Assembly (NCBI RefSeq): GCF_001679925.1
Contig: NZ_LYUZ01000087.1
Span: 1 to 60,954 of the forward strand
Direction of reading: 5' to 3'
Source: Leisingera sp. JC1
GTDB lineage: Bacteria > Pseudomonadota > Alphaproteobacteria > Rhodobacterales > Rhodobacteraceae
Length of the DNA stretch: 60,954 nt
Shown here: positions 12,378 through 56,970 of the stretch, in pieces
Position numbering within the stretch: the stretch's first letter is position 1
Layout: each line of letters starts with the position of its first letter
Position numbers and translations under genes: made by a program
The notes under the pieces: model-generated
What the model saw: only the letters and a program-made list of their open reading frames with translations
Database searches by the model: none
Told to the model about the DNA's origin: nothing

Positions 12378-12548
12378 AAACCTATTCGCATTTAATGTGA
12401 GCCAGGGCGGATGATTGCAAGCCCGTCGCAAATAATGTGGGTTCATTCGCAGATAATTCGGGTTTGGGGTGCCGGATAGATGCAAATAGTTCGGGCTGAA
12501 AATCAAGATGATTGCAGGTCGAACCGGTTATGTTTGCAGGTCACGACA
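12378..12548 (-). repeat. Right inverted end of the element
   Basis: Inverse copy of the left end. On the minus strand it shows CCCGAACTATTTGCA, CCCGAATTATCTGCGAA, CCCACATTATTTGCGA and CTCACATTAAATGCGAA, four tandem-like units, plus the two TGCAATCAT boxes. The outermost bases repeat the first codons of the 9191-9373 gene. Confidence 0.65.
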
Positions 12549-12575
12549 TGTAGAGGTGTGTTTCCCAATGGCGCT

Positions 12576-12803
12576 TCATGCCGGCACCTCAGCGCTGAAC
12601 ACTACGGTTTCGCCTTCGACCTTGTAAGGAACAGCCTTGGACAGCAGTTGCTCGATGGCGGCGGCCGGGACGTCGGCAAAGGTCGCACTGACGGTCTGAA
12701 GCATCCGCTGCCGATCTCCCTCAAAGGAATAGGCGTTGATGGCCCACGCGATAACGCCGGGGGTGTGAACTGCAGGAGAAGAACCGAGGCGGTATGTTGT
12801 CAT
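12576..12803 (-). CDS. Small hypothetical protein
   Basis: A 75-aa protein with GGGAG 7 bases before the ATG at 12803. Mixed alpha/beta composition (ending VPYKVEGETVVFSAEVPA). Its 5' flank is the palindrome-rich element at 12843-13079. Not recognised. Confidence 0.6.
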   Translation of the reverse strand: MTTYRLGSSPAVHTPGVIAWAINAYSFEGDRQRMLQTVSATFADVPAAAIEQLLSKAVPYKVEGETVVFSAEVPA

Positions 12804-12842
12804 TTGAGTGCTCCCTATCTGTGGTGCAAGAAAATCAAGGCT

Positions 12843-13079
12843 GGATGCAGGACAGCCGCCGAAGGCGCCTGCCCCTGCATCCCTGCCTCGTGGCGAACAG
12901 CGGTTGGGGGCGAGACAAGCGCGCGAACCGCAGGACGGAGGAAAATTTGTCCCGCGAGGAATGGGCCAAAGGCCCAGGGGAAATTTTCCTTTGGGCGAGG
13001 AACTTGCGCGCTTGTCCGAGGGGGAAGGCAGCGTCTTCCCCCTAACCAGGGGGCGTTCGGCTTGTCCGAATCCCCCCTG
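12843..13079. repeat. Nested palindrome element A
   Basis: A run of strong inverted repeats upstream of the minus-strand gene at 12803. (1) GGATGCAGG 12843-12851 pairs with 12874-12882. (2) GACAAGCGCGC 12913-12923 pairs with 13006-13016, enclosing AGGAAAATTT 12939-12948 / AAATTTTCCT 12981-12990, which encloses GGGCC-aaa-GGCCC. (3) GGGGGAAG / CTTCCCCC at about 13020-13042. (4) CAGGGGG 13047 / CCCCCCTG 13079 around GTTCGG-CCGAA. The inner core is shared with element B and hairpin 4 with element C. From 13080 to 13241 there is only a partial copy of the 305-bp cassette and a GATCAGCG hairpin. Confidence 0.75.
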
Positions 13080-13241
13080 CCCTACCGGTGAGAATGTCTG
13101 GGCCGGGGTGAGCGGGCGCAGCCCGTCGATCCCCTGCCCTGGCTAGATCATCTATGTGATCAGCGGTTTCGCTGATCTCTTGTTCCTGATGCCCATCCTG
13201 TAGCAAACAATTGGGCGGCCGGAGCCGCCCAATTCTGGACT

Positions 13242-13430
13242 TCAGGAGCTGGCATCCTTCTTCGGGAAAGCAACCATGTCCACGTTCGGGAACATATCGT
13301 GTTTGACGGTGATCGCGGTGATGTTGCCCTTCTCGTCGGTGCTGACGAAGGCAACACCGCAGCGGTTCCAGTAAGTCTTGCCGTCTTTTTCGTTTGCCTT
13401 GACGTTAAGGTTCAGAGTTTGAGAAGGCAT
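13242..13430 (-). CDS. Small hypothetical protein, intact copy of an inverted duplicate
   Basis: A 62-aa protein (MPSQTLNLNVKANEKDG...) of probable beta structure. A decayed second copy lies in opposite orientation at 13621-13775, so the gene and its leader form one arm of a 0.5-kb inverted duplication. Function unknown. Confidence 0.62.
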   Translation of the reverse strand: MPSQTLNLNVKANEKDGKTYWNRCGVAFVSTDEKGNITAITVKHDMFPNVDMVAFPKKDASS

Positions 13431-13435
13431 TTTGT

Positions 13436-13617
13436 GATCCTCGCTTTGAGTGTTTCGATGAACATGGAGGAAGCGGGCTCAAAGGGGATGTCAGCTGAAA
13501 ATTTGATCCGCGAGGAATGGGCCTTAAGCCCAGGGGAAATTTTCAGTTGAAGCAAAGCGATCATTCCCGGCTGCCCGCTTAGTGTTCATCTTTGAGAAAC
13601 ACAGATTGGCGAGGATC
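13436..13617. repeat. Nested palindrome element B
   Basis: Concentric inverted repeats centred near 13526: GATCCTCGC 13436-13444 with 13609-13617; GAACA 13460 with TGTTC 13583; AAGCGGGC 13471-13478 with 13573-13580; CAGCTGAAAATTT 13492-13504 with 13537-13549 (one G-U-type mismatch); GGGC 13519 with GCCC 13528. The core between the inner arms (CCGCGAGGAATGGGCC...AGGGG) is nearly the same as in element A although the arms differ in paired fashion. Confidence 0.75.
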
Positions 13618-13620
13618 CTT

Positions 13621-13775
13621 ATGGCTTTGGTCTGAAGTTGCGTCTCGGAGGCTGAAGGCAAGACTTGCTGGAACTGCGGTAGAATTGTGAGAGTCCAGCG
13701 GCGGTGAATAGGGCAACATCACCGCGATCACCTTGAGCGCGCCTTTTTCAACCGTAACCTGGTTGCCTTGCAGAC
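13621..13775 (+). pseudogene. Decayed inverse copy of the 13242-13430 gene
   Basis: From an ATG at 13621 the plus strand repeats parts of the minus-strand gene: GGCAAGACTTnCTGGAAC, then the stretch at 13712-13732 identical to the intact gene over 21 bases, then GGTTGCCTT near the end. Stop codons and small deletions break the frame (a TGA five codons in). Confidence 0.65.
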
Positions 13776-13824
13776 CTAGGGACAGCTGAAAACACGGTCA
13801 GGCAGGTAGCCGCAGGCCAATCAT

Positions 13825-13859
13825 TAACAGGTAACACATAACAGAGAACTGTTATTGGT
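13825..13859 (+). repeat. Heptad cluster 1 (TAACnnn)
   Basis: Contiguous 7-base units TAACAGG, TAACACA, TAACAGA, GAACTGT, TATTGGT. It overlaps a perfect ATAACAG/CTGTTAT inverted repeat (13838-13855). Same motif as the clusters at 14134, 14349 and 15363. Confidence 0.65.
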
Positions 13860-13871
13860 AGCCGTTCTCCA

Positions 13872-14070
13872 GGCTGCTTGCAGCCTGCGCAATGCGATCG
13901 TCACCCGAAGGGCCGATACAGCCGTGTGGAAACGACCATGGCGCAAAACGCGTCAGCTGGCCCTTTGGGACAGATGAGGTGTTATTGCCCCAGGGAGTTC
14001 CACACGGTTGGATCGGTGGAGCGCCGCCTGCGGCGCGGAATAGAGCGCGGTCCCGCGTTCACGCGGGATG
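13872..14070. repeat. Hairpin-rich segment upstream of the partition genes (element H)
   Basis: AGGCTGC-tt-GCAGCCT at about 13872; CCGTGTGGAA 13922-13931 with TTCCACACGG 13998-14007, a perfect 10-base long-range stem; GCGCCGC/GCGGCGC near 14030; TCCCGCGT/ACGCGGGA near 14053-14070. No gene is seen between 13776 and 14410. An AT-rich stretch lies at about 14234-14266. Confidence 0.6.
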
Positions 14071-14133
14071 CGCCCCGAAACCAAGTCGATGCTAAACTAG
14101 TGCCAAATCCGGAAAGGCAGAACCCATACCCCA

Positions 14134-14203
14134 TAACCCTTACCCCTTAACTCCTAACTCTTAACTCTTAACTCTTAACTCTTAACTCTTACCTGTTAAT
14201 TGA
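14134..14203 (+). repeat. Heptad cluster 2: ten tandem 7-bp units, likely partition centromere
   Basis: Ten contiguous heptads: TAACCCT, TACCCCT, TAACTCC, five exact TAACTCT, TACCTGT, TAATTGA. Tandem heptads are how the small ribbon-helix-helix ParB analogues of type Ib partition systems (such as Omega of pSM19035) recognise DNA. The position about 200 bp upstream of parA fits parS. The binding itself is inference. Confidence 0.75.
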
Positions 14204-14348
14204 TCCTTTTCTTTAACTCAAACCCGATCCACAATGTTGCAAAATAATATTTATTTATAGCACATTAAGGAGTGACCTTGCCCAATATCAGCGGTCTCAT
14301 GTGACCACCACGCTATAGTCTCAATGGCACACAGCAGACAACAACGCT

Positions 14349-14383
14349 TAACAGTTTACACATAACTATTAACACCTTATAGG
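14349..14383 (+). promoter_or_regulatory. parA promoter embedded in heptad cluster 3
   Basis: TTTACA (14355-14360), 17 bases, TATAGG (14378-14383) form a good promoter about 28 bases before the parA GTG. The same bases are five heptads: TAACAGT, TTACACA, TAACTAT, TAACACC, TTATAGG. Binding of the downstream-encoded small protein here would autoregulate the operon. A CACCT-tat-AGGTG palindrome (14373-14385) covers the -10. Confidence 0.72.
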
Positions 14384-14410
14384 TGAACAAGGCAAAAAAA
14401 GGATCGAGCA

Positions 14411-15073
14411 GTGACCCAAGTAATCAGCGTTGTTCAAGAGAAAGGCGGGGCAGGGAAGTCTACCCTCCTCATAGCAATTGCATCACTAATGGTAGCGGAT
14501 GGCGCCAAAGTGGCCGTCATCGACACAGACCCACAACATACCCTTTCGGACTGGGCCAAAAAAGAAAGCACCGACGTTGATTGGGCGGTTGAGGAAGACG
14601 ACGAACGGCTAATTCCAACACTTCGCGCTCTCAAGAAGAGCGAGCCGGCTTACGATGCGATTTTTGTGGACACCGCCGGTTTCAAGTCGGCTATGGCTGT
14701 TTATGCAATCAACGCATCCGGCCTGGTCTTGATCCCTTCGAAAGCCACTGAAACCGATGCCAAAGGTGCAATCAAGACATTCAGGCATGTGACCAGTGTG
14801 GCGGACTCGATGGATAAAGACATTCCTGCCTATGTCGTCATGATGGACGTGGATCCGGCAACCAATATCACAGCGGCTACCTTGGAATCCCTGGATGACC
14901 TTAAGATACCCAGGCTAAAAGCCATGTGTGCGCACCGAACAGGCTTCAAGGAAATGATGAGCACAGGCCGAGGACCCGAGGGTTCAGCAAAGAGGTCGGC
15001 ACAAACTGTGTTGGCTGAAATGCAGATGGGTGGTCTGATCGATTTCTACGGAGGTAAAGATGGCAAAGCTTAA
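14411..15073 (+). CDS. parA: ParA-type partition ATPase
   Basis: A 220-aa short ParA without an N-terminal DNA-binding domain, as in type Ib partition systems. Deviant Walker A KGGAGKST at residues 11-18 with both lysines; VIDTDPQ (Walker A') near residue 37; FVDTAG (Walker B) near residue 82. It should form ATP-dependent gradients on the nucleoid that distribute plasmid copies. Start GTG with AAAAGG about 8 bases upstream. It overlaps the next gene by 14 bases and is preceded by heptad arrays that probably serve as centromere and operator. Confidence 0.9.
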   Translation: MTQVISVVQEKGGAGKSTLLIAIASLMVADGAKVAVIDTDPQHTLSDWAKKESTDVDWAVEEDDERLIPTLRALKKSEPAYDAIFVDTAGFKSAMAVYAINASGLVLIPSKATETDAKGAIKTFRHVTSVADSMDKDIPAYVVMMDVDPATNITAATLESLDDLKIPRLKAMCAHRTGFKEMMSTGRGPEGSAKRSAQTVLAEMQMGGLIDFYGGKDGKA

Positions 15074-15365
15074 AGTTGACCTGGGCCTTGATGATACCCA
15101 CGAGGAGAAACCTGACGCGGAGGCGGAAATTCTCCGCCAGCTTTCAGCTTCTTTGCCAAGCCCATCTAAAGCTAAGACCGGATCGCTAAAGACTGCCCCG
15201 CGCGTTCAGTTCGCATTTTCCAACGTCCCTAAGCCGATCAAACAGGCATTCATTGATGCAGCCGAGGCTAAGGGCATGGGTATGAAAGAGTTTTTGTACC
15301 ACTGCTTGCGGGCAGGAGGCGTTGATATCCCTCCAATGGAAGAAATAGACGGTCGCCGCAGGTAA
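15060..15365 (+). CDS. Small ParB-analogue (centromere-binding) protein
   Basis: A 101-aa protein directly downstream of and overlapping parA, the position of the ParB analogue in type Ib systems. N-terminal 50 residues are charged and flexible; residues 55-95 (RVQFAFSNVPKPIKQAFIDAAEAKGMGMKEFLYHCLRAG) have the strand-helix-helix outline of a ribbon-helix-helix DNA-binding fold. It is expected to bind the TAACnnn heptads and to stimulate ParA. Its stop codon lies inside heptad cluster 4. Family assignment rests on context and shape. Confidence 0.75.
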   Translation: MAKLKVDLGLDDTHEEKPDAEAEILRQLSASLPSPSKAKTGSLKTAPRVQFAFSNVPKPIKQAFIDAAEAKGMGMKEFLYHCLRAGGVDIPPMEEIDGRRR

Positions 15366-15400
15366 CAAGACATAACACATAATAGGTAACTGTTAAGAGT
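15363..15400 (+). repeat. Heptad cluster 4 (TAACnnn)
   Basis: TAACAAG, three bases, then TAACACA, TAATAGG, TAACTGT, TAAGAGT. It begins on the stop codon of the small partition protein, so the partition genes are bracketed by the same motif. From 15401 to 15564 there are only short GC-rich hairpins and no gene. Confidence 0.62.
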
Positions 15401-15564
15401 CACCTTTGCAGCCTTCTTTTCGCCGCGCAGCGGCTCAGGCGCCGAAGGCGCCAGTCCAGGAGGGCAGGGCCTTTAGGCCATTCCCTCCTGTGACATCAGA
15501 AACGGCCGGCCTTTTCCTTCAGCCAACCGGCGGTAAAAAAGGTAGCTGTTTCGGAAACTCACCC

Positions 15565-16374
15565 TCAAAAGAGGGTGAGCTGCTGACCGGAAATAGCTGG
15601 ACTGTCGCCCAGAGTAGCAAGCCGGTTTTTCCGTTCGGCCTCGGCTTGTTGCTCTCGCTGGGCTGCTTCAGCTTCAGCTTGCTGTGCCTGTTCTTTCTGT
15701 TTGGCAAACGGATCTCCATTTGCCGCGAAAAACACAGGCGCGGCGGCGGTGTAGGCGCTGGTGAATACCTCAAGCGAAAGGCTATTGCCGCAAATGATCT
15801 TACCAGCCAGGCCACGCGCGGCGCATTGGACATAGCACATATGGAAAGTCGGACGGGACAGCTCCACAGCTTCTACCCAAACAGAAGTTTCCAGCTTATG
15901 ACCCTTGCCCTCGATGACGTCCGCGATCGCCATAAGCATTCCACCTGCGCCTGCAGCTGGTTCCTGAACGGTGATAAATCCCTGTTCGGCAAGCTTCTCG
16001 TCCACATCGGTTAGCGAGATTTCCGCCATCATGCGCGACACTTCGTAGGGCGTAAAAAACTGGCCAAGTTTAGCGTCCAGAACTTCCAGCTCACTGGCCG
16101 CCATGCCCAGAAAATCGCAACCACCATTGCCGATTTCACCAAGGGCGATCCCTACCATTTCCGGCATTTTGCGCACATCGTCCTTGTCTCGGTAACGGGC
16201 AACAACGCTCATATATTGGGCTTCCAGGGCTTCGCGCTGATCAGGAAACGGGCTGGCTTTCTTAGCCAGCGCGCAATAGCTCATTTCGCAGAAGTCAGCG
16301 AAAACCTCTCTTCGATGCTTGGAACGGTCTATATCGTTGAGAAGGCGCACAAATTCTTTTACCGCTGGGTTCAT
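15565..16374 (-). CDS. Methyltransferase-fold protein without the catalytic NPPY motif
   Basis: A 269-aa protein resembling type I (HsdM-like) N6-adenine methyltransferases in its SAM-binding half: GQFFTPYEVSRMM at 104-116 (motif X), EPAAGAGGMLMA at 138-149 (motif I), VEAVELS near 168 (motif II), ICGNSLS near 194. Where motif IV (NPPF/Y) should follow, about residues 200-220, there is VFTSAYTAAAPVFFA and then a Gln/Glu-rich coiled-coil tail. It may therefore bind SAM or DNA without methylating. Coupled by 4 bases to the zinc-finger-like gene upstream. Confidence 0.75.
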   Translation of the reverse strand: MNPAVKEFVRLLNDIDRSKHRREVFADFCEMSYCALAKKASPFPDQREALEAQYMSVVARYRDKDDVRKMPEMVGIALGEIGNGGCDFLGMAASELEVLDAKLGQFFTPYEVSRMMAEISLTDVDEKLAEQGFITVQEPAAGAGGMLMAIADVIEGKGHKLETSVWVEAVELSRPTFHMCYVQCAARGLAGKIICGNSLSLEVFTSAYTAAAPVFFAANGDPFAKQKEQAQQAEAEAAQREQQAEAERKNRLATLGDSPAISGQQLTLF

Positions 16375-16613
16375 TCCGCTGCCTCATCGGCGGCGGCCTG
16401 TTTAAGGTCTTTTTCCAGTTCGGCAGACGGTTCGATGATCGGAAATTCATAGGTTTCTACTTCGTGGCCGCAGTCATCACAAACACGGCTGTCAAAGACT
16501 GCGGACAATTCCCAATCCTGAATTTCATCGACCCATACTGCTGTTGCGTCGGCCTTAATGTTTTGGCCTCCGCATTTTCCGCAGTGAACAGAGACCGGGG
16601 CTTTACACGGCAT
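16371..16613 (-). CDS. Small zinc-ribbon-like protein
   Basis: An 80-aa protein with two CxxC knuckles (HCGKCGGQ near residue 10 and VCDDCGHE near residue 45), a typical zinc-ribbon pair, and an acidic tail. Its stop overlaps the start of the methyltransferase-like gene (ATGA). First gene of this pair after the palindromes at 16742-16989. Confidence 0.65.
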   Translation of the reverse strand: MPCKAPVSVHCGKCGGQNIKADATAVWVDEIQDWELSAVFDSRVCDDCGHEVETYEFPIIEPSAELEKDLKQAAADEAAE

Positions 16614-16741
16614 TTTGTACTTTCCTGTGTGGTGGTCCCATTTCGATCTGGATGCCGAATACTTGGGACAGGGATTGCGGGAAGGACCGCGCAGCGGCCC
16701 TCTCCTGCAAACCCTGCTCCCGGCCGAGGGCAGGAGGGGGA

Positions 16742-16989
16742 CCCGTCAAGCAGAGTGCCGGGCCGGAAGGGGAGGGGGATCACCCATCCTCGCAGCGCGG
16801 CGGAGCCGTGACCGAGGTTGGGGAAACCCCTTCCGGCCCGAATAGCGCTCTGCTTGACGGGGGAACCGGCGGTTCCCGGATCTCCCTGGGGCGTTCGGCT
16901 TAGCCGAATCCCCCAGGGCACTAATGGGAAAGTGCCATGCCGCTGCTGCGGCATGACCGCAGCTCATGTGATCGCCGTGCAAGCACGGG
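16742..16989. repeat. Nested palindrome element C and following hairpins
   Basis: CCCGTCAAGCAGAG 16742-16755 pairs exactly with 16848-16861, and inside it CGGGCCGGAAGGGG 16759-16772 pairs with 16827-16840, leaving a 54-base loop. Then: GGGAACC-ggc-GGTTCCC 16861-16877; CCCTGGGG...CCCCCAGGG 16884-16918 around GTTCGGC/GCCGAA, a variant of the 13047-13079 hairpin; CATGCCGC/GCGGCATG near 16935; CCGTGCAAGCACGG near 16976. No gene is seen in 16614-17061. Confidence 0.72.
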
Positions 16990-17001
16990 GATCTCCGCAA
17001 G

Positions 17002-17028
17002 AAAAAAAACCCCACCACAAGGGCGGGG
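17002..17028 (-). terminator. Rho-independent terminator
   Basis: On the minus strand a CCCCGCCC...GTGGGG stem is followed by eight T. It would end transcripts leaving the gene whose stop is at 17062. Confidence 0.65.
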
Positions 17029-17061
17029 CTAGTTGGTTCCTTCACCACAAAGGAAAAAAGG

Positions 17062-17484
17062 TTAGCCAGGATCGTGAACAGCGCGCCAGTTCGCACCCTG
17101 GGGAATTTCATCGGCTGAACGTCTCAGCATCATCGCTCGGTTCTGCAGGGCCATAATGATCGGCGTTGATGGGTGATCGCCACGCTTGCCTCGCTGGGGT
17201 CGCTGCAATCCGGTTGGGCCTTTCCTGTACAGCCAAAGTGCAATCTCAATGGCTTCAAGATCCTGTTCAATTTTGATCATCTCCAGCGGCATACACATGC
17301 CATGGGTTTCCAGATCGCGGTGGCGTTTTTGAGACAGCCTCCGCCGGCTTAGCTGCCAAGCGCATCTGCTCCATTCTGCAACATCACTCCACCAAAGGGC
17401 AGTTCCGGGCGTCCGATAGGCAAGGCGTTTCGCTACCGAACGCAAGGATTGGCAGGCTTCAGACTTGGCGGTGAAATCAGGCAT
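17062..17484 (-). CDS. Hypothetical plasmid protein
   Basis: A 140-aa basic, helical protein beginning MPDFTAKSEACQSL. The frame is open a further 54 codons upstream, but that part lies inside the previous gene; the ATG at 17484 leaves an 8-base overlap and gives natural sequence. Resembles helper proteins encoded next to plasmid ParB-like genes, function unknown. Confidence 0.58.
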   Translation of the reverse strand: MPDFTAKSEACQSLRSVAKRLAYRTPGTALWWSDVAEWSRCAWQLSRRRLSQKRHRDLETHGMCMPLEMIKIEQDLEAIEIALWLYRKGPTGLQRPQRGKRGDHPSTPIIMALQNRAMMLRRSADEIPQGANWRAVHDPG

Positions 17485-18112
17485 GGATTTCCTCGTCCAG
17501 TTCTCCAAGGCGCAGGAAAAGTCCGGACGCCCGCACTCGGTCCTGCATAGCCTCAGTGCGGTCTTTGTTGCTGGACGCCGCTGCTTGCAGATGATGATAG
17601 GCAGCATGGCGTTCGGCCAAAGGAAACGCATCAGGGTCTTCAGCAATGTCGCGCGCCTTTAGGATCGTCACGAAAAGCTCGGACGTTGCAAAGAGGCTGC
17701 CTTTCCGTGCGCCTGATGCATCCGTGCGTGACAGCGGGAAGGGCGGGCGTTTCAGGTCGATCCGGCCTTGGCTGTAGCTGTGCAGAACGCTTAACAGATA
17801 GGACGGGTCAGCAGGGTAGGGCGCGCAATCCCATGCCCGCCGCACAGCACGGCGCTCGTCGTTTGGCAGTGCGTCGATCAGGCGGCGGGCTTCGCGCCAC
17901 TTCTTGGCACGGCCACTGCGATCCCGCACCTCTTGCGCCTCCCACTGTTCAGCCCGCTCCTTCATTATCTGGTCCTCAGTTGGCTGTTCTTCGGCAATCT
18001 GTTCGGCAAAGAGTGGTAGGTTCTCACGCTCTTGGCGCTGCTTGCGGCGCAGTGCGGCCCGTTTACGTTCCGTGTCGGTGAAAGCGTGGCGCGGCCAAGG
18101 TTTGAATCGCAT
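17477..18112 (-). CDS. Hypothetical plasmid protein
   Basis: A 211-aa protein with a highly charged first half (RKQRQERENLPLF, then Glu/Gln/Arg-rich helices) and an Arg-rich middle. The ATG at 18112 is chosen because GGAG lies 6 bases before it; another ATG four codons upstream has no site. It follows the ParB-like gene by 49 bases and is probably in its operon. Not recognised. Confidence 0.6.
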   Translation of the reverse strand: MRFKPWPRHAFTDTERKRAALRRKQRQERENLPLFAEQIAEEQPTEDQIMKERAEQWEAQEVRDRSGRAKKWREARRLIDALPNDERRAVRRAWDCAPYPADPSYLLSVLHSYSQGRIDLKRPPFPLSRTDASGARKGSLFATSELFVTILKARDIAEDPDAFPLAERHAAYHHLQAAASSNKDRTEAMQDRVRASGLFLRLGELDEEIHA

Positions 18113-18161
18113 GACTATCTCCATAGGTGGGGCAGGGCGCGTTAACGCCCTGCCAGCGGCC

Positions 18162-20012
18162 TTATTCCATGCCCTCGGGCAACCATGCGTCGATCTTCGC
18201 GGACTGCTCGTCGGTGACGTTGTGCGCCTTGCGTGTCTCAGCGCTGGTAAACAGGCTTTCCAGCTTTTCCGCCTTCTCGCCTTTTTTCAGCTTGGCAAAG
18301 CTCGTTGCAGTCGGGTGATCTTCGGCAAGGTCCAGCAGGTCGCGCCAAATCTGGTTCATGTAGGGACCACCCACGCGGCTGAAAAAGTTCTCAGCGGTCG
18401 GCGTCCAGACTTCGCGGATGCTGGGCTTTGTTTCCTTGGCAATCATCGCCGCCAGCTTCGCATCACCGCCCTGATATTGGGCTGCAAGGAAGCGGGTCAG
18501 TTCGCCGCGAATATGCTCTGCGCCTTTCTTGCGGAACGCCCGAAACGATGCGCCAAGGTCTTTGGCATCGTACATATCGCGGGCCGGGTTCGTGGTCAGC
18601 CGCTCGTCCAGTTCATAGCCTGCCGCCTCAGTGCTGGGCCAATTCGGCACATAGCTTTGTGACAGGCCGAACGGGTTGGACCACCGCATTTCATGGCTTA
18701 ACTGATAGGCCAGAAGGTCAATCATCAAGTCCGGATCGCGCAGGATCGCGTGTTGCTGCGCACCCTTTGCAACGCGGTTCAGGTCGTCGCGCAGCGCCTG
18801 AGAAATCGGAGACTTCGGCGTTGCAGGGGCGGCGGAACCGGCTGACGCTTTGAGAACACCCGCTGCAACGGCGTCTTGCTTGTCTTCGGGTCGGACCATT
18901 TCGCCAGAGCGCTCCAACACGCCTTGATGGTTCACATAGATGTAAAGACCGGCATGGGCTTTCTGTGCCTCGGAATATTCCCCGTCGATGATCTTCTGCA
19001 GGTCGGCAAGCTCGGCCTGTCCGTCCTCGTCCAGAACTTCGCCCTCTGCCAGTTCGGCAAGCTCGTCATAGCGCTCCGACTGTTCTTCGCTCAGATCAGC
19101 ACCTTCGCTGTAAATACGTTCGTATTTCTCCAGCCCCATCGTGTAATGGCACAGGTAATGCTCGGTGATGGGTTCGACCCATTTCCAGCCTTCGGCCTGT
19201 GCGATTTCGCGGGCAGTATCTTCGAGCGCAACCTGAAAACAGCCATCCAGAATTTCCGGGCTGTCATACAGCTTTTCCTCGGCAAACAGATCGCCGCCCA
19301 TTTTGCCGCCTGCTTCGGTGTAGGCATCATCGCCCACGAATTTCACACGGCGGTCAGTCGCTTTCACGCTGGCGGGTTTCAGTTGCTTTTTAAGCTGGTG
19401 ATCTGACCAGTTCTCGCCGCGCACCCGGTCCAGTACGGCAAGGGCGTGGGCCTCGTCGTCACAGATCGTGAAACATGCCGCCATGCTCAGATTGATTTCC
19501 TGTGCGGCCAGCGCATCAAGAACTGGCTCCGGCAGATCGGCCAGAGCAAGGCGGCGGTAGACGTGCTTTTCAGTCACGCCGAAATTGGTGGCAATGGCGC
19601 TGACGTCTTTGCCCTCGGCGCGCATTTCGCCAAAGGTGCGGATTTCCAGAGCCGGGGGCAGGTTCTTGCGGACCACGTTTTCCATCTTCGCCCAATCGGC
19701 GGCGGTTTCGCGGTCGGGTGCCAGCATCACCAGCGGGTTTGCCAGTTCGGGCCGTACCTTGGCAAATTCCGGCTTTGTCTCGGCCAGATACTGCAGGGCG
19801 CGCAAACGGGTGCCACCAGCAACAATCTCGACCCCGTCCAAATCCTCGGTATAACCGGAAAGGCACTGGATCATGCCCTTGGCCCAGAGGGTTCCTGCAA
19901 GGTCTTTAATGTCCTGATCCGGTACTTCCTGACGCGGATTCATGGGGGAGAGAGTCAGTTTTTCCAGCGGGAAACGGGCTTCGAGGGGTTTGATGTTCTC
20001 GTGCTTCGACAT
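18162..20012 (-). CDS. ParB/Srx-domain DNA-binding protein (large plasmid form)
   Basis: A 616-aa protein. Residues 12-75 form a ParB/sulfiredoxin-type domain (LSPMNPRQEV, IKDLAGTLWAKGMIQCL, then EIVAGGTRLRAL), and residues 120-170 a KorB/ParB-like helix-turn-helix (VSAIATNFGVTEKHVYRRLALADLPE). The long C-terminal part is unlike chromosomal ParB (about 300 aa). Large proteins of this kind are common on conjugative plasmids, often in leading regions; proposed roles include nuclease, ATPase or regulator. It is not next to parA here, so I do not call it the partition partner. Confidence 0.82.
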   Translation of the reverse strand: MSKHENIKPLEARFPLEKLTLSPMNPRQEVPDQDIKDLAGTLWAKGMIQCLSGYTEDLDGVEIVAGGTRLRALQYLAETKPEFAKVRPELANPLVMLAPDRETAADWAKMENVVRKNLPPALEIRTFGEMRAEGKDVSAIATNFGVTEKHVYRRLALADLPEPVLDALAAQEINLSMAACFTICDDEAHALAVLDRVRGENWSDHQLKKQLKPASVKATDRRVKFVGDDAYTEAGGKMGGDLFAEEKLYDSPEILDGCFQVALEDTAREIAQAEGWKWVEPITEHYLCHYTMGLEKYERIYSEGADLSEEQSERYDELAELAEGEVLDEDGQAELADLQKIIDGEYSEAQKAHAGLYIYVNHQGVLERSGEMVRPEDKQDAVAAGVLKASAGSAAPATPKSPISQALRDDLNRVAKGAQQHAILRDPDLMIDLLAYQLSHEMRWSNPFGLSQSYVPNWPSTEAAGYELDERLTTNPARDMYDAKDLGASFRAFRKKGAEHIRGELTRFLAAQYQGGDAKLAAMIAKETKPSIREVWTPTAENFFSRVGGPYMNQIWRDLLDLAEDHPTATSFAKLKKGEKAEKLESLFTSAETRKAHNVTDEQSAKIDAWLPEGME

Positions 20013-20086
20013 TTGGGCATTCCTTGTAACGTGGTGAATTTTTGTGTTATTGGTGCCCCAGCCCTTTTGGGCTGAGGCGTGGCCGC

Positions 20087-20200
20087 TTAGGCGGCTCCGT
20101 GTGATTTCAGAAAGGCGAGGCCGATCTTGGCGGAGAGACCTCCCTTTCTGATCAGCGCATAGGCTTCACGCTTGCGCAGATTGATCTGTTCAATGCTCAT
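20087..20200 (-). CDS. Very small basic protein
   Basis: A 37-codon gene (MSIEQINLRKREAYALIRKG...) with GGGAGG 7 bases before the ATG at 20200. The product is a basic, amphipathic helix-rich peptide. It lies between the DUF3768 gene and the ParB-like gene on the same strand. A small AGCCC/GGGCT hairpin follows it at 20055-20078. Confidence 0.55.
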   Translation of the reverse strand: MSIEQINLRKREAYALIRKGGLSAKIGLAFLKSHGAA

Positions 20201-20248
20201 GACTTCACCTCCCTCCCGGCGCGGTAGCACCTACGGGCTTTGCCGATT

Positions 20249-20698
20249 TCAGTGTTCGTGGGGCAGGTAGATGGTGAGCACACGCCGCGTATCGTCATCG
20301 TCAAGCGGATCGTCTGCGGCGGCATCGTAAGTTTTGTTGTAGAGGCTGATTGCCCAGAAAACTTCCGTCTCGTTGACGTGGACAACACCAAACGAGTGAT
20401 CACCGCTCGGATCGTTCAATTGGCTAAAGTCCGTGAATTCAGCGACTTCCTTGGTCGCAAGGGAAACAAACAGCATCCCTTTTTCCTCAACGCCACCGCT
20501 GAAAATCACCTGCCCCTCATAGGTCTGATGCCCTTGGAATGGGATTGCAGCGCGGAAAGCATCGTTCGCTTCCGCGATTGCAGCCGCTTGAATGGACATG
20601 TTGACGACGGCACGGGAACCGCAGGCTGAGCAAGAGTCAGGCACCATAGAAGTCAGCGTTTCCGCTGCTCCGCACCCGTTGCATTGATATAAAGCCAT
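20249..20698 (-). CDS. DUF3768 family protein with N-terminal zinc ribbon
   Basis: A 149-aa protein. The C-terminal 90 residues match the DUF3768 pattern I know from alphaproteobacterial plasmids: a GVEEKG stretch, NDPSGDHSFG, VFWAI-Y, and TRRVLTIYL near the end. The first 30 residues carry two CxxC knuckles (CNGCG, CSACG), a rubredoxin-like ribbon. Function of DUF3768 is unknown. It follows element E and heads the operon continuing with the 37-aa gene and the ParB-like gene. Confidence 0.78.
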   Translation of the reverse strand: MALYQCNGCGAAETLTSMVPDSCSACGSRAVVNMSIQAAAIAEANDAFRAAIPFQGHQTYEGQVIFSGGVEEKGMLFVSLATKEVAEFTDFSQLNDPSGDHSFGVVHVNETEVFWAISLYNKTYDAAADDPLDDDDTRRVLTIYLPHEH

Positions 20699-20768
20699 AG
20701 TTGGCCTCCTAAGTGGTGATGCGGTGGCCGATGTTCGCCCGACCTATCCGCGTTCGCTTCGGTTTGTT

Positions 20769-21056
20769 CCAATGGGTCAAGGAAACGACCCATTGGCCCT
20801 GACGCCTGCCACCCGCACCCATCCGCGTTTTTCCCCGGAAGGGAGGGGGGGCGACAAAAGAGGTGTGGCGAGGCTTCAGCTGGTTTCGATCCAGCCGAAA
20901 AACGGAAGGTTCGCCCGCTTGCGGGTGAAAGCCGTTTTTCTGCTTGAAGGCAGGAAACTCAAAATGTGATCCGCGCAGGCGCGGATCTCTTCTGCGCCGT
21001 TCGGAGCCGGCTGAAGCCTCAGAACAACTCGTCGCCCCCCTGACCGCCGGGGAAAA
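20769..21056. repeat. Nested palindrome element E
   Basis: CCAATGGGTC 20769-20778 pairs with 20787-20796. A larger structure follows: TTTCCCCGG near 20830 with CCGGGGAAA near 21047; AGGGGGGGCGAC with GTCGCCCCCCT; GAGGCTTCAGC with GCTGAAGCCTC; GAAAAACGG with CCGTTTTTC; and CGCCCGC-tt-GCGGGTG. A GATCCGCGC/GCGCGGATC hairpin sits near 20970. It lies upstream of the minus-strand DUF3768 operon. No gene is seen in 20699-21625. Confidence 0.7.
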
Positions 21057-21104
21057 GCAGCGCAGCAGACCGCCCATGGCGGGCTGCGATCACGATAAGC
21101 AAAC

Positions 21105-21409
21105 ATGCCGGGGCAGGGAGGAGCGGGCGCAGCCCGTCGATGCCCTGGCACGACCCCAAGTATATGCAATCCGCGCGCCCCGCGCGGATTTCCCCTGTCT
21201 CTTGCACAAGGCGTAGCGAACGACCGTTACCCGAAGGGCGGAGACAGCCTGTCTTGATCGACCATGCGGCCGCGGCGGCAAGCTGGCTCGGAGAGACAGA
21301 TTCCGGCGCACTTGAGCCGCAGGGAGAACGGGGCAGGGTGGCTCCGGCCTGGTGCCGCCTGCCGGCGCCAGGCTAGGGCGCGTTCCTGTGCTTCAGCACG
21401 GGATTTGCC
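21105..21409 (+). repeat. 305-bp direct repeat, copy 1
   Basis: Colinear with 24904-25208 (constant offset 3799, no net insertion or deletion), with scattered substitutions. Contains GAGCGGGCGCAGCCCGTCGA, a CCGCGCG/CGCGCGG hairpin followed by a pyrimidine run, a GGCGGAGAC segment and a GTGCTTnAGCAC hairpin at its end. No open frame is shared, so it is not a gene. Bases 21410-21625 show no gene, only the approach to the next start. Confidence 0.85.
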
Positions 21410-21625
21410 CACTTCGGAATGACATTTCATCAGAGATGCGGCGAATAGTTTTTGCCGACACACGAATAGAGCTTGGTCCCGGACAGGACTGTTCTCTATC
21501 TATCGCATGTTGCTTGAGAAGACCAACTTCTGCCTAAATAACTGTAATGTAACCTAGATTTTCCGATATCCATATCTTAGTTCCCTTCAAGAACCCAGAC
21601 CAGAAGACTTAAAAAGGGAATACCT

Positions 21626-22090
21626 ATGTTCACGGCACGTATCTCTAACAATTCCACTACTGGAAACACGTCGGCTGTATTTTCACTGTTGCAAGACGAA
21701 CGAACCGACCGAGTGACGTTCTTCGCAAGCAAAGACGAACCGACAACAGATTTTCTATTGGGGCATGGCATTGCCGACAATCTGCCGCTCGTGGCGATCT
21801 TGGCTGAGGGCAGAATGTTGGGCCCAGTGAAGATGTTTGTGGTAGGCGACAGCACCAACTTCCTGATGGCCAATCGGATGCAGCGGGCGGGAGAAATTAA
21901 AGAAGTTACAGATGAAGCAGTGAGAAGCGGCAAGGCCCACTTTTCAAGAACCCGCGCACCGTTTACGGCTCATCTTTCGCCTGAAGCTGCTGTGGAGGTG
22001 TTGAGTAAACTCGAAACGGAACTGTTGACCTCGGAAACAGTGAACGATTATCGAGCGATGTTGAACAGGACGAAGGCTGTCTGGAAGTAA
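21626..22090 (+). CDS. Hypothetical protein
   Basis: A 154-aa soluble protein (MFTARISNNSTTGNTS...), the only plus-strand gene between the two 305-bp repeats. Several hydrophobic strands (LPLVAILAEGRMLG, VKMFVVGD) suggest an alpha/beta fold. More AT-rich than its neighbours, which hints at recent arrival. Not recognised. Confidence 0.55.
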   Translation: MFTARISNNSTTGNTSAVFSLLQDERTDRVTFFASKDEPTTDFLLGHGIADNLPLVAILAEGRMLGPVKMFVVGDSTNFLMANRMQRAGEIKEVTDEAVRSGKAHFSRTRAPFTAHLSPEAAVEVLSKLETELLTSETVNDYRAMLNRTKAVWK

Positions 22091-22167
22091 AGCGCCTGGT
22101 GGGAATCCGAGCGCAGGGCAAGTGCATTTACAACAGCTGGGCTTCACTGTCGTGGCCTGTTCGCGGC

Positions 22168-22464
22168 TTAGTGCCCTGCGAGACTGTTTGGAATCTCGGG
22201 CTGTTGGGGCAGTTTCTCCGGCGGGCTGACAGCGTTTTGCGTAAGCCACTCGCGGATCACAACCCATCTGTCTTGATGGGAAGGTGGCCGTCGCCAGTTG
22301 AGGAGTTCAGCCGCTTTTCGTTCCAGCTCCGGAAACCACTGTAACTTGAGCCGCAGTTTGTGTTTCCTGGACCAGGATCGAAATGGTGTCAGCCAATCAT
22401 CTTGGGCATGAATTTCCAAAGCCTCTTTGAGGTCTTGCGGGATGGTATTGGGCCATTCTCTCAT
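22168..22464 (-). CDS. Hypothetical protein
   Basis: A 98-aa protein beginning MREWPNTIPQDLKEAL. Trp- and Arg-rich, probably helical and DNA- or protein-binding. The frame is open upstream to 22665 but that part looks non-coding and crosses a terminator, so the ATG at 22464 is used; its ribosome binding site is weak. Confidence 0.5.
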   Translation of the reverse strand: MREWPNTIPQDLKEALEIHAQDDWLTPFRSWSRKHKLRLKLQWFPELERKAAELLNWRRPPSHQDRWVVIREWLTQNAVSPPEKLPQQPEIPNSLAGH

Positions 22465-22623
22465 AACGGAGCAAATACATTGCTGGCTGGGTAGGGAGCA
22501 AGGACGCAAATTCAGGCGCCCGCTCGGGCCGTAGAAACGGCCCCCCTGCGCGGGCAGCGCCAGTCCTGCAGTATCGGGGCTATTGCCCCGGTGCTGCAGG
22601 GCAACAAGACCCCGGCAAGATAG

Positions 22624-22644
22624 AAAAACCCCGCCGGAGCGGGG
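22624..22644 (-). terminator. Rho-independent terminator
   Basis: On the minus strand CCCCGC-tccg-GCGGGG is followed by TTTTT. It ends the methyltransferase operon whose last stop is at 22681. Confidence 0.85.
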
Positions 22645-22680
22645 TAATCTTCTCAGCCGATCCAAAGAAAAGGCAACGCC

Positions 22681-23286
22681 TCAACCAATCCGGAACCGTA
22701 TTATTTTTGTGTGAACTTTTGCCGTTGAAAAAGTGTCGTTTGGCAGGACTTCCAATTCCTCGGCATCGTCATGGCTGAAGGTGATAGGAACCAAAGCCAC
22801 CAGGGTTGCAGGTTCATCGTGCCCGCCCTGGCCCAGAAGAGAAAGAGCCGCGGCGATGTGCTTCCGGACATCTCGAAAAGGCGGGTTCATTATGATGCGA
22901 GGAAACGCGGCCCGGCCTTTCACCTCGCCCGCGTACTCCAGAAAGCAGCGGTTGATTGTCGGCGCGATGCCGTAAAGCGATGCGGCAAGTTTGGTGTGGC
23001 GCTCGATCAGCGTCAGCTCCTGGGAACTATGCCCCGAAGCGATGAGGGCGCGCGCCAGCTGGCCGGTTCCTGCGCTTGGCTCAAGCGTCAGATAGTCCCC
23101 CACAGGGCCGAGGTATTCCACCATCCGGCGCGCTACGTCGTCGGGGGTAACGTGGCATTCGGTCACTTTGTCCACGGTGATCACCTCGGGGGTCTCGATC
23201 TTCGCCAGGGCTTCGGGTTCCCGTCGCGCCCTGACCGGAATGGTCAGGGGCTTTTGCGGGCGGGTGTAAATGCTCGGGCGGTTCAC
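22681..23286 (-). CDS. N6-adenine-type DNA methyltransferase
   Basis: A 201-aa orphan methyltransferase. SAM-binding motif I EPSAGTGQLA at residues 69-78, acidic motif II (LIERHTKLAA) near 93, and catalytic motif IV IIMNPPFRDV at 131-140. It is complete but compact, lacking an evident target-recognition domain. No restriction gene is adjacent; on conjugative plasmids such enzymes may protect incoming DNA from host restriction. Overlaps the DUF3560 gene by 4 bases. Confidence 0.85.
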   Translation of the reverse strand: MNRPSIYTRPQKPLTIPVRARREPEALAKIETPEVITVDKVTECHVTPDDVARRMVEYLGPVGDYLTLEPSAGTGQLARALIASGHSSQELTLIERHTKLAASLYGIAPTINRCFLEYAGEVKGRAAFPRIIMNPPFRDVRKHIAAALSLLGQGGHDEPATLVALVPITFSHDDAEELEVLPNDTFSTAKVHTKIIRFRIG

Positions 23287-24614
23287 TGTGCCGCCTCCAT
23301 ATCTGCGAAGCTGGCGGGGGCCTCGTGCTGCTTCTGGTCAGTGATCAGGATTGCAGCCCAGCCAGCCGAATAACGCGGCCCCTCGTGTTTCGGGTTTGGA
23401 GCAATCCGAACCCGGAAGTTGCCGCAGATCGAAAGGCGGGTTCCACGCTGCTCGCTGTGGATTTTTGCATATTCCGCCTTGGTCAGCTCGACCTGAGGTA
23501 AAATCATTTCCTCACGGCGATACGGGTTCACCAGAGAAATCTTCCCGCTGGCGGCCTTAAAATTCAGGATCGGCGGCTTTGCCGGTTTTTTGGCCGGGGG
23601 AACGTAACCGCAAGACTGCATCAGGTCACGCCATTCATCGCCCGAAAGCTCAACGCTTGTGCCTTGCGCGATGTGAGCGGGCAGGGGGGCCTTGCATTCG
23701 ACGGTGAAGAGGTCGCTATCCACTTTAGCTCCCTTCGGTTTGTCGGCCCCATGCTCGCGAACGAACATTTGCAGGAGCGTCGGAGTAATCTCACCCTCAA
23801 ATCGCGGCACCTCCCCCAGCATTTCCCGCTCATAGGAAAGGCGGTTAAGGGTGTGGGAGATCCAGCGCGCCAGGTTGTCGCTTTCGATGATCGAGCGCGC
23901 CCCAGCCATGGCCTTCTCCCGTGCGTCCTCCGGGGTGATCTCGCCGCGGTCCACCGAAGACCACAGATTGAAAGAGTGCATATCACTGCGGCCAAGGAAC
24001 AGCTTGATTTGCTCCGGCGTGGTTATCTTCTCCCACAGTTCCAGCGCCTTGTGCGCCGTGTTCAGGTTGCGCTGCAGGTCACGCAGCTCCGCCAGCAGGG
24101 TTTTAATCCGGCGCGCGCGCACTTTAGGGTCGTTCTTATAGTTGGCGTGACGCTCCACACCCTCGGCCCGATACTGCCAATAGCCGATGGCGTTATGAGC
24201 CTTAGCAGCCTTGGACAGGGCGTTATCCATCCGCTCCTTGTCCTTGCGCGCTTTCCGTTCGGAATGGTGACCGATCAGGATAGGCTGGCCGAACTCGAAA
24301 CGCTGGGAAATATCGCGCGCAGCGCGGGAGAAAGCAGAGGCCTGCGCAGCGCGTTTGTCTGCAAGGGCGTCCAACCGCTCGGCCTTCATCTGCGCACGCT
24401 CCGCGAGCGTGGTTCCTTCCGGTTCGATCTCGCCCGCCAATTCAAGGGCCAAGTCCTCACGTTTGCAGGACCACTTGGGAGCGACGAAAAGCTCCTGTTT
24501 CGGCGCCCATCTGAAACCGGCGTCCTTTACCCGCTGAAAAGTTTCATCATCCAGCCGCACGGACGGATAAAGACGGATTTTGTTGTCTTCGGGCGAATAG
24601 GTGGCTGTGATCAT
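23283..24614 (-). CDS. DUF3560 family plasmid protein
   Basis: A 443-aa protein whose first 200 residues match the DUF3560 pattern: ATYSPEDNKIRLYPS, then AGFRWAPKQELFVAP, GQPILIGHHSERKARKD and YWQYRAEGVE. A long helical middle and a beta-rich C-terminus follow. DUF3560 genes are typical of plasmids and often lie beside orphan methyltransferases, as here; biochemical function is not known to me. First gene of the operon downstream of element F. Confidence 0.82.
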   Translation of the reverse strand: MITATYSPEDNKIRLYPSVRLDDETFQRVKDAGFRWAPKQELFVAPKWSCKREDLALELAGEIEPEGTTLAERAQMKAERLDALADKRAAQASAFSRAARDISQRFEFGQPILIGHHSERKARKDKERMDNALSKAAKAHNAIGYWQYRAEGVERHANYKNDPKVRARRIKTLLAELRDLQRNLNTAHKALELWEKITTPEQIKLFLGRSDMHSFNLWSSVDRGEITPEDAREKAMAGARSIIESDNLARWISHTLNRLSYEREMLGEVPRFEGEITPTLLQMFVREHGADKPKGAKVDSDLFTVECKAPLPAHIAQGTSVELSGDEWRDLMQSCGYVPPAKKPAKPPILNFKAASGKISLVNPYRREEMILPQVELTKAEYAKIHSEQRGTRLSICGNFRVRIAPNPKHEGPRYSAGWAAILITDQKQHEAPASFADMEAAQ

Positions 24615-24649
24615 TTATTTTTCCTCTTGTGGTGTGACGGTGGGGCTTG

Positions 24650-24890
24650 ATGTCCACTTTCCGCCGATGGGCGCGGCCTCTCTGCACTGACCGCTGAAAG
24701 ACCCCGTGTCTTTCGGCTGGCAGAGCAGGGAGGGCGCAGCCCTGCCTGCGGCCTGGGACGGGACTGTCACGGGGTTGAAGGGAGGCTGGCGCGGCCCGCA
24801 GGCGCAGCCGAGGACACGGGCCTCCCGGAAACGGCGCGCGCAGCGCGGCGCTTGCCCCTTGACCGGCCCGGCACAGGATGCGGGCGGACC
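24650..24890. repeat. Palindrome-rich element F
   Basis: Upstream of the DUF3560 gene. GAAAGAC-cccgt-GTCTTTC; ACCCCGTG with CACGGGGT; GCAGG-ga-GGGC-gca-GCCC-tg-CCTGC; GGGAGGC with GCCTCCC enclosing GGCTGGCGC/GCGCAGCC. Less regular than elements A, B, C and E. No gene is seen in 24615-25317; the second 305-bp repeat follows at 24904. Confidence 0.55.
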
Positions 24891-24903
24891 AAACAAATGA
24901 ATG

Positions 24904-25208
24904 ATGCCGGGGCAGGGGGGAGCGGGCGCAGCCCGTCGATGCCCTGCCACGACCCCTGAAACATGCAAACCGCGCGCGTCGCGCGGATTTCTCCTATCTC
25001 TTGCAAAAGGCGCAGCGAACGACCGTGACCCGAAGGGCGGAGACCGCGTGACCTGGTCGACCGTGCGGCCGCGGCGGCAAGCTGGCTCGGAGAGACAGAT
25101 TCCGGCGCACCCGGGCCGCAGGGAGAACAGGGCAGGGGGGCTCCGGTCTGGTGCCGCCTGCCGGCGCCAGGCTAGGGCGCGGTCCCGTGCTTAAGCACGG
25201 GATTTGCC
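24904..25208 (+). repeat. 305-bp direct repeat, copy 2
   Basis: Partner of 21105-21409. Differences in the CCGCGCG hairpin and the terminal GTGCTTnAGCAC hairpin leave the pairing intact. Shorter relatives lie near 13098-13175 and 25690-25765. Confidence 0.85.
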
Positions 25209-25317
25209 GAACCGGCTAACTATCGCGTGTTCATCCCTTTCCATCTGCGATCCAAAGTTGATCTGAGGCAGGAAAACGCTAAAGAAGCACCACAAAATCT
25301 GCCAAGAAAGTGAAGTC

Positions 25318-25677
25318 ATGAACCCGATCGACCAGCATGTAGGAAAACGCATTCGGCACCGGCGCTGGATGAAAGGCATGTCACAGCAGGAGCTAGCTGT
25401 ACACTGTGATGTGAGGTTTCAGCAGGTTCAGAAGTATGAGACCGGTGCCAACCGTGTCAGTGCATCAAGGCTTTGGGAGATTGCGGAAGCACTGGACGTT
25501 CAAGTAGCCTATTTCTTCGAAGGTCTTGACGGCGGCACGCCCTCAGGAGGTGATGCCCTCGCCGAAAACAATCAGTTGCTCGCCAAAGAAGCAGTGGATC
25601 TGGTGCGGACCTACTACGGGATTCCGGAGAAAAGCCGTTCACATCTGCTTTCTTTAGCAAAGACACTGGCCGCTTAG
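25318..25677 (+). CDS. XRE-family transcriptional regulator
   Basis: A 119-aa Cro/C1-type repressor. Helix-turn-helix at residues 8-65 (VGKRIRHRRWMKGMSQQELA, then FQQVQKYETGANRVSASRLWEIAEAL), followed by a short C-terminal helical tail. The pattern is close to the common alphaproteobacterial regulators of this length. Its targets are not evident. It is followed by a palindrome (25769-25894) before the porin gene. Confidence 0.88.
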   Translation: MNPIDQHVGKRIRHRRWMKGMSQQELAVHCDVRFQQVQKYETGANRVSASRLWEIAEALDVQVAYFFEGLDGGTPSGGDALAENNQLLAKEAVDLVRTYYGIPEKSRSHLLSLAKTLAA

Positions 25678-25768
25678 CGCGAATAATATTCTGGCACAGC
25701 CAGTCGATGACCTGCCACGGCCTACGGAACATGCGATCCGCGTATCCAGCGCGGATCTCTTCTTCTTC

Positions 25769-25894
25769 GAACGGGCAAAGTTATCCAGCCGCCCAGATCT
25801 TCGAACTTGCGAGAAATCTGAGGCGGCCTCAGCAGCGTCATGGGCGAAGACGCCAGAATCTGAGAACGGACGCTGTGGGTAACTTTGCCCGTTC
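25769..25894. repeat. Nested palindrome element G
   Basis: GAACGGGCAAAGTTA 25769-25783 pairs perfectly with 25880-25894; inside lies CTGAGGC-g-GCCTCAG. Just before it (25690-25765) is a short relative of the 305-bp repeat with a GATCCGCG/CGCGGATC hairpin and TCTTCTTCTTC. Nothing else is seen in 25678-26021. Confidence 0.7.
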
Positions 25895-26021
25895 CACCCC
25901 TGTTCAAAATGCCATGGATGCACGCAGGGATTGATCACACTATCATTCATAATTTATTTGGCCGGCAGGCTGCACAAAGCGGCATGGAAACTCTCGGAAA
26001 ACTGTCAGGCACACATTGCAG

Positions 26022-56969: not shown

Positions 56970-56970
56970 C

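Follow-up and report, generated by a model that had tools for sequence, protein, structure and literature searches.

A conserved, strand-specific fold in candidate transferred-strand leaders of a marine MOBF plasmid

How might genes of a conjugative plasmid be read in a new host before the second strand is made? The question is raised by a 60,954-nucleotide stretch of DNA from Leisingera sp. JC1 (contig NZ_LYUZ01000087.1; this whole stretch is the window hereafter), in which minus-strand genes running from 24614 down to 12576 are interspersed with large palindromes. An earlier note, made from the sequence alone, had proposed that these palindromes act like the Frpo single-strand promoters of plasmid F, folding on the incoming strand and driving the operons behind them. 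Our analysis suggests that the leaders of this block, which stand before genes of a kind that helps a plasmid become established, probably form a new class of Frpo-like leader on the transferred strand (T-strand), and that the block is part of a MOBF plasmid's leading region. The strong strand-specific signal sits in a conserved element of ~165 nt, termed Y, rather than in the palindromes near the genes; Y lies upstream of the palindromes in three leaders and was absent from the earlier note's list.

The Y copies of the window lie on the plus strand at 13896–14052 (copy A, leader 2), 21222–21385 (copy B, leader 4) and 25021–25184 (copy C, leader 5), and score 119.9, 161.7 and 148.7 bits, respectively, against a covariance model (R1) built from 18 Y copies; the model returned 74 matches, 70 of them distinct, across 67 sources. 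Folding free energies (dG) favor the plus over the minus strand in each copy, at −62.0 vs −53.6 for A, −67.3 vs −44.4 for B, and −69.5 vs −49.4 for C. A 300-nt repeat is common to two leaders (90%), and its upstream 165–200 nt are related to 13880–14085 at 68%. In the Y alignment 92.8% of 2272 cells pair, with two-sided change in 27 of 33 pairs, counts that are biased toward the model to which the rows were aligned; the controls are far lower, with covariation of 0.518 vs 0.135 after shuffling, and pairing that falls to 34–47% when pair partners are shifted by 1–3 columns. All 18 copies are more stable on the plus strand, and the strand difference (zdiff) is below −1 in 16 of them, the two copies with a weak difference being those of Tritonibacter and pSMR1-3. 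The RNAalifold consensus for the 18 copies is −36.0 on the plus and −18.3 on the minus strand. G.T pairs outnumber A.C pairs by 59 to 16 in 49 dereplicated rows, vs 124 to 86 in column shuffles (Fisher p 0.003, a rough value in which shuffle means were treated as counts). Read by eye, the long Y hairpin has GAG-A-C facing G-G-CTC at both ends, with an A.G mismatch.

Because the fold belongs to the plus strand, Y is disfavored as an RNA leader of a minus-strand mRNA. A plus-strand gene for a non-coding RNA, antisense or regulatory, for which nearness to the leading genes would be secondary, would fit the covariation and the G-U type pairs too. We regard such a gene as very improbable: Rfam gave no match at the gathering threshold anywhere in the window, no long T-run follows the last hairpin of the window copies by eye, and the strand of Y is tied to the nick site (nic) and to opposite-strand genes, as detailed below. 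At a lax threshold over 12400–26020, the best Rfam match (E 0.027), to a microRNA family, fell on the palindrome at 16.7 kb and stayed far below that family's cut-off.

Which strand, then, would enter the recipient? The ends of the window overlap exactly over 162 nt and close the contig as a circle of ~60.78 kb, making it a circular MOBF plasmid (~60.8 kb) of a marine bacterium. Its MOBF relaxase gene lies at 56941–59976 (plus strand; Pfam TrwC, E 2e-76). Behind the relaxase operon is a conserved, structured noncoding stretch, where two strongly structured steps led us to a candidate origin of transfer (oriT) at 60496–60710 on the plus strand, comprising a conserved block with hairpins just 5' of the predicted nic. 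The plus strand here carries a 13-mer, GCGTGGGGTGTGG, identical to oriT on the F T-strand, and by analogy with F nic would fall between 60680 and 60681, at GCGTGGGGTGT^GG. In F-type oriTs a hairpin precedes GTGGGGTGT^GG close to a MOBF relaxase gene; this pattern is present here and marks a candidate cleavage site whose cleavage point we assume to be that of F. The block could be aligned in six sequences (the window, Phaeobacter piscinae pP14_b, Leisingera caerulea, Tritonibacter, Pukyongiella and L. methylohalidivorans), all of which hold GCTGCGTnnnGTGTGG with hairpins ahead of it, of the AATCAGCGC/GCGCTGATT and the GCAGC/GCTGC type; those of Pukyongiella are imperfect.

Since the candidate oriT lies on the plus strand, the plus strand is the predicted T-strand, with transfer running rightwards from ~60681 through position 0; the minus-strand genes would therefore be templated by the T-strand, as in F. 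The leaders would lie ~12.9–25.3 kb from nic along the plus strand, in a leading-region position behind the candidate oriT, as Frpo elements do. The template orientation that the earlier note had likened to F thus held up, as did its premise that the plus and not the minus strand is the one transferred. Other sites were considered for oriT and set aside: an R388-like TTATAGCGCAGAG near 54470, ahead of the coupling protein gene, is not within the stretch that pP14_b and Tritonibacter share with the window (from 54490), homology to L. methylohalidivorans extending beyond it to 54405; GGGTGT near 54566 resembles F less closely than does the site at 60670; and a noncoding stretch near 1516–1562, of which ~45 nt are almost unchanged across three plasmids, has no hairpin or nic pattern by eye. 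Also upstream of the coupling protein gene, an inverted repeat CCGCGGCAC/GTGCCGCGG (54490–54600) is common to pP14_b and altered in Tritonibacter and L. methylohalidivorans. The candidate oriT (60455–60800) stands downstream of the MOBF relaxase operon, and the T-strand sense is also that of the relaxase and transfer genes, unlike in F and R388.

The strand of Y follows the nicked strand across plasmids of several relaxase classes. Both Y and a nic-like site could be located in nine plasmids, and Y is on the nicked strand in eight: the window, pP14_b, the L. caerulea plasmid, M658 unnamed5, CP081057, pSMR1-3, pP75_g and R388. The first three agree through their MOBF sites. Among the MOBP plasmids, an identical TGGCGCTTAGCCTATCCTGCATTAG stands upstream of a mobC-like gene in M658 unnamed5, CP081057 and pSMR1-3, always on the strand of the Y fold (YATCCTGY occurs four times in M658 unnamed5, three of them elsewhere on the other strand). 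The MOBQ plasmid pP75_g carries AAGTGCGCCCT, which we take to be an RSF1010-type nic, once and on the Y strand. NJS204 and Yoonia CP021433 agree with the Y strand by relaxase strand alone.

How far Y extends, and what it precedes, was addressed by blastn and by model searches. The 300-nt repeat was found by blastn, whole or in part, in 43 plasmid records, all alphaproteobacterial by name, and its best places lie under no annotated feature, save three under a hypothetical protein. By model search, Y is present in 66 of 390 Rhodobacterales genomes (31 of 139 genera) and in 8 of 398 genomes sampled across the phylum, the window's own genome included. The 113 Y places listed are distributed over 83 contigs, and on every multi-copy contig (22 of 22) all copies share one strand. 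Sixty Y regions were fetched and five short ones dropped, leaving 55 loci, some of them near-copies of each other. A tblastn search with 30 query proteins, a set biased in that many were drawn from genes adjoining Y, looked for recognised leading-type genes on the 5' side of Y: at 36 of the 55 loci the opposite strand has one or more and the strand of Y has none; the sole plus-strand matches 5' of Y were five ParA. At nine of 12 annotated plasmid loci, the opposite strand carries the gene closest to Y on the 5' side. Twenty open reading frames (ORFs) scanned from the remaining loci included DUF736 (three loci), BREX BrxC/D with TerB, and a CoiA-like protein on the opposite strand, while several of these loci hold apparent cargo (transposase, LysR, NmrA-like) or gave no Pfam match. 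At L107:1491-5319, Y is immediately upstream of TerB-domain and BREX BrxC/D-like genes, and defence-related genes may sit behind Y-type leaders. At another locus (L073) a single Y lies on a 4.3-Mb chromosome-sized contig, perhaps within an integrated element, and the L. caerulea plasmid carries a minus-strand reverse transcriptase family gene (L020:22914-23885) beyond its leading-type genes.

Within the window, the minus-strand orientation from 24614 to 12576 was confirmed, the exceptions being parA- and parB-like genes (14411–15073 and 15060–15365) and one ORF of 154 aa (21626–22090). The families that the earlier note had named in this block were also recovered, all on the minus strand: Pfam identified DUF3768 (20249–20698, E 9e-19), an N6 DNA methylase (15565–16374, E 2e-10) and DUF3560 (23283–24614, E 3e-25). 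The 616-aa product of the ParB-like, leading-type gene (18162–20012) scores 25.3 bits in Pfam, slightly below the cut-off of 26.3, and was assigned by alignment to its ParB-like counterpart in the F leading region (26% identity over most of its length, E 8e-29). The methyltransferase-type gene (22681–23286) had no match in the Pfam scan and was assigned by its DNA match to a pP14_b gene annotated 'methyltransferase type 11'.

Structured DNA upstream of five of the minus-strand operons, the palindromes of the original proposal, was likewise evident, at 12815–13092, 13431–13600, 16614–16960, 20699–21100 and 24615–24903, with DNA-fold z values on the plus strand from −3.9 to −8.9; the earlier note gave its elements A–F no coordinates, and their pairing with these five leaders is ours. 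The enrichment of structure in the block exceeds chance: GC-corrected z is below −2.5 in 8 of 106 240-nt steps starting inside 12576–25300, vs 4 of 399 outside, and of those four, two fall partly on the candidate oriT and a third is an additional hairpin at 25681. The leaders are modular, with a gene-near palindrome, small hairpins termed M2/M1 in most, and the strand-specific Y at the upstream end in three of five. Leader 1 (12815–13185; z −5.9 for 12815–13092; repeat D3) places palindromes and M2/M1 hairpins before the gene at 12576–12803 (minus strand). The gene-near palindrome of leader 2 (13431–13600; 14-nt arms 13491–13504/13537–13550; z −3.9) precedes the minus-strand gene 13242–13430. 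Leader 3 (16614–17000; z −8.9 for 16614–16960) combines a nested palindrome at 16742–16861, with nested arms of 17 and 14 nt, and an M1-like hairpin seen by eye, and precedes 16371–16613 (minus strand) and the N6 methylase gene. In leader 4, the nested palindrome (20830–21056; arms 20860–20889/21001–21030 and 20830–20855/21031–21056; z −7.2) is followed by M2/M1 hairpins at 21105–21217, within the 300-nt repeat shared with 24904. The structured region of leader 5 before the DUF3560 gene (24615–24903) folds strongly (dG −86.4 on the plus vs −66.2 on the minus strand) yet holds no inverted repeat of at least 9 nt; its M2/M1 hairpins lie at 24904–25016 (direct repeat D1). A further M2/M1 copy, with a hairpin of 19-nt arms at 25769–25894, occupies 25680–25900 (repeat D2, inverted repeat I5). 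All of these modules are given on the plus strand.

An oriT-like site on the plus strand, the orientation of the genes, a conserved Y fold on the putative T-strand and copies that share one strand together suggest how the block could work. The plus strand would enter the recipient 5' end first from oriT at ~60.68 kb, and the leaders before the minus-strand operons would fold on it. These folds would locally imitate double-stranded DNA and could attract the transcription machinery of the recipient, or serve to prime RNA; transcription, perhaps priming, would start on the folded strand and run toward its 5' side into the minus-strand genes. The DUF3768/ParB-like, DUF3560, N6 methylase and small unknown genes would then be expressed before the second strand is made, and would fall silent once duplex conversion removes the fold. 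Of the modules, Y has the strand signal, and the gene-near palindromes occupy the place of F's long hairpin. Such a scheme would entail cleavage at the candidate site, folding in vivo, recruitment of RNA polymerase and early expression. Passages of PMC9849209 and PMC11541004 describe the same logic for Frpo (single-stranded DNA folds, expression is early, and the duplex ends it), and those of PMC9849209 state that early expression of the leading genes of F depends on Frpo1/2.

The proposal that the elements are Frpo-like stood in part: the plus-strand template orientation and the T-strand folds were borne out, and a relation to the Frpo sequence beyond a short motif was not found. As for the duplex with −35 and −10 boxes that had been suggested as a check, the box scan of the hairpins gave at best 8/12, in one element and on the minus strand, vs just 7/12 for the F Frpo control, so the scan decides nothing and boxes inside hairpins were set aside as uninformative. 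A plain sigma-70 scan of 12500–25900 found 2 sites vs 4.4 in shuffles.

Alternatively, Y could be a single-strand initiation site that loads a primase or primosome, letting the complementary strand start at several points, with early gene expression being ordinary and arising from the first duplex made. The same strand specificity and several copies per plasmid would be expected of it, the hairpin with conserved sequence blocks and, by eye, an A.G mismatch near each end would suit it, and Frpo/ssi elements in F and ColIb are described, in passages of PMC7736820, as both priming and transcription sites. A priming role would leave unexplained why Y so frequently stands upstream of the same kinds of gene on the opposite strand, and leaders are not a required location for priming sites; we judge this alternative unlikely. 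Less likely still, the leaders may be double-stranded regulatory repeats, the palindromes being operators of a plasmid repressor that permit zygotic induction. The CUP elements of the IncN plasmids pKM101 and R46 offer a precedent, as repeats that likewise stand as leaders before leading-region genes, and differ from the window in being known, from passages of PMC6289460, as binding sites of ArdK in duplex DNA. A double-stranded operator would not be expected to show what Y does: covariation, more G.T than A.C pairs and a fold energy that depends on the strand. For the gene-near palindromes, on which the Y evidence says little, an operator role may hold. The R46 stretch lacks the short motif shared with F (given below), and its best model matches score 17.0 bits outside the repeats (E 0.058) and 14.5 bits in a repeat (E 0.19).

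Several observations weigh against the reading of the leaders as Frpo-like. Y is present in just three of the five window leaders, and its copies are ~410–525 nt from the gene starts, a long distance for a promoter; convincing −35/−10 boxes were not found in the hairpins by a scan that failed on F Frpo too. Strand preference is weak for the gene-near palindromes, being seen in 16 of 24 homologous leaders that lack Y, and one of the five in the window leans to the opposite strand. The position of nic in the window is predicted from sequence, and ~13 kb separate it from the first leader. In Tritonibacter CP136707, Y is opposite to the strand of the MOBF site; this plasmid also has two MOBP relaxases, a weak excuse, as the agreeing pP14_b is typed MOBF plus MOBP too. 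At 19 of the 55 loci no recognised leading-type gene lies 5' of Y, and annotated loci L023, L027 and L031 are exceptions to the opposite-strand 5' gene. Counts of the nearest ORF at the 55 loci are mixed, with 38 minus, 16 plus and one none on the 5' side and 32 minus, 21 plus and two none on the 3' side; this counting was dropped in favor of tblastn as too noisy in GC-rich noncoding DNA.

The remainder of the plasmid encodes a TrwB/TraD-type coupling protein, a RepC-type initiator and H-NS (1781–2125), and 32152–52198 matches, at 89%, DNA of the F-type transfer genes annotated in pP14_b; pP14_b and the L. caerulea plasmid are its near relatives within the plasmid collection. It also carries an RcgA family putative transporter (28306–30015; NCBIfam NF047336, E 3e-154) and, at 6494–7159, a member of the PFIN family of plasmid fertility inhibition factors (E 5e-19); the R388 annotation includes FiwA.

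How do these leaders compare with characterised systems? Frpo1 and Frpo2 of F, and ssi2 and ssi3 of ColIb-P9, resemble the window in their T-strand fold and in leading genes templated by the T-strand. F and the window share the same order of gene, long imperfect hairpin, small hairpins and distal hairpin over ~600 nt, and the two similar leader copies of F, 5.4 kb apart, can be likened to the repeated leaders of the window. The F Frpo leaders, taken as a control, are more stable when folded as T-strand (zdiff −1.6 and −2.9), and a stable T-strand fold upstream of genes templated by that strand is what the window leaders have in common with them. Overall sequence similarity was not found in a comparison made with the R1 model, no blast of the window leaders against an Frpo set having been run, and R1 scored 10.6 and 9.4 bits on the F leaders (E ~1–2); these two T-strand leaders are the best R1 matches in the F stretch searched, at scores that are not significant. 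Both carry CCCG..GGGCGGAGAC on the T-strand, and the motif CCCGn1-4GGGC[CG]GA[AG]AC, whose definition followed inspection of F, has two occurrences in the 19.5 kb of F, both in these leaders and on the T-strand, vs none in 40 Markov resamplings. The 81.4 kb of ColIb-P9 fetched lack the motif and hold no model match below E 0.3. The hosts of F and ColIb-P9 differ from those of Y, which are Alphaproteobacteria and IncW plasmids.

R388 carries two Y-class matches on the plus strand (28.6 bits, E 2.6e-4 each), inside two 661-nt repeats of 95% identity (L131:19565-20213 and 23561-24219); one repeat precedes a zincin-like metallopeptidase gene taken as ardC, and the other a gene ending at 19554. Both repeat regions fold better on the T-strand, as computed without shuffles. 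The plus strand also holds TGTCTATAGC at 16169, presumably the R388 nic; TGTCTATAG occurs again at 19617. By blastn, the R388 element occurs in 30 records, including Shinella, Rhizobium and Methylobacterium plasmids. Like the window, R388 has a DUF3560 gene near its Y-class elements and an H-NS gene; unlike the window, its Y is short, without the long arm, and its relaxase and leading genes are on one strand, whereas those of the window are on different strands. Its leading region holds maintenance and establishment modules, according to passages of PMC7213743.

In the published work as far as available to us, single-strand promoters have been characterised in F and IncI1, and genome searches rely mainly on BLAST with known sequences; passages of PMC11541004 add candidates through a promoter consensus and fold, in a few islands, and those of PMC12826799, using known and candidate Frpo sets with BLAST, report Frpo in only seven H-NS plasmids, read as depleted leading regions. 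Because H-NS genes are present in both the window and R388 alongside T-strand-folding leaders of another sequence class, this depletion may reflect the search set. The literature searched on Frpo, leading regions, R388 repeats and CUP does not describe the element or contain the motif words, subscription papers and supplementary tables lying outside its scope, and a description elsewhere is possible. We tentatively propose, as a possibility that falls somewhat short of an even chance, that Y is a recognition module common to leading-region leaders, with a range that reaches well past Frpo. Its hairpin, whose ends are GAG-A-C/G-G-CTC and whose foot is CCCG-GGGC, is found in alphaproteobacterial MOBF, MOBP and MOBQ plasmids, in R388 and, in a reduced form, in F. 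On this view a single conserved factor, whether RNA polymerase, a primase or a protein of the plasmid, would recognise Y, and plasmids in which Frpo has been reported missing, such as those with H-NS, would possess a start signal of their own on the single strand. With the R388 elements, the question can be taken into ordinary E. coli laboratory strains. The gene types and T-strand folds of the block match the layout of F and that of R388, and Y-type leaders look like an unrecognised relative of the enterobacterial single-strand promoters.

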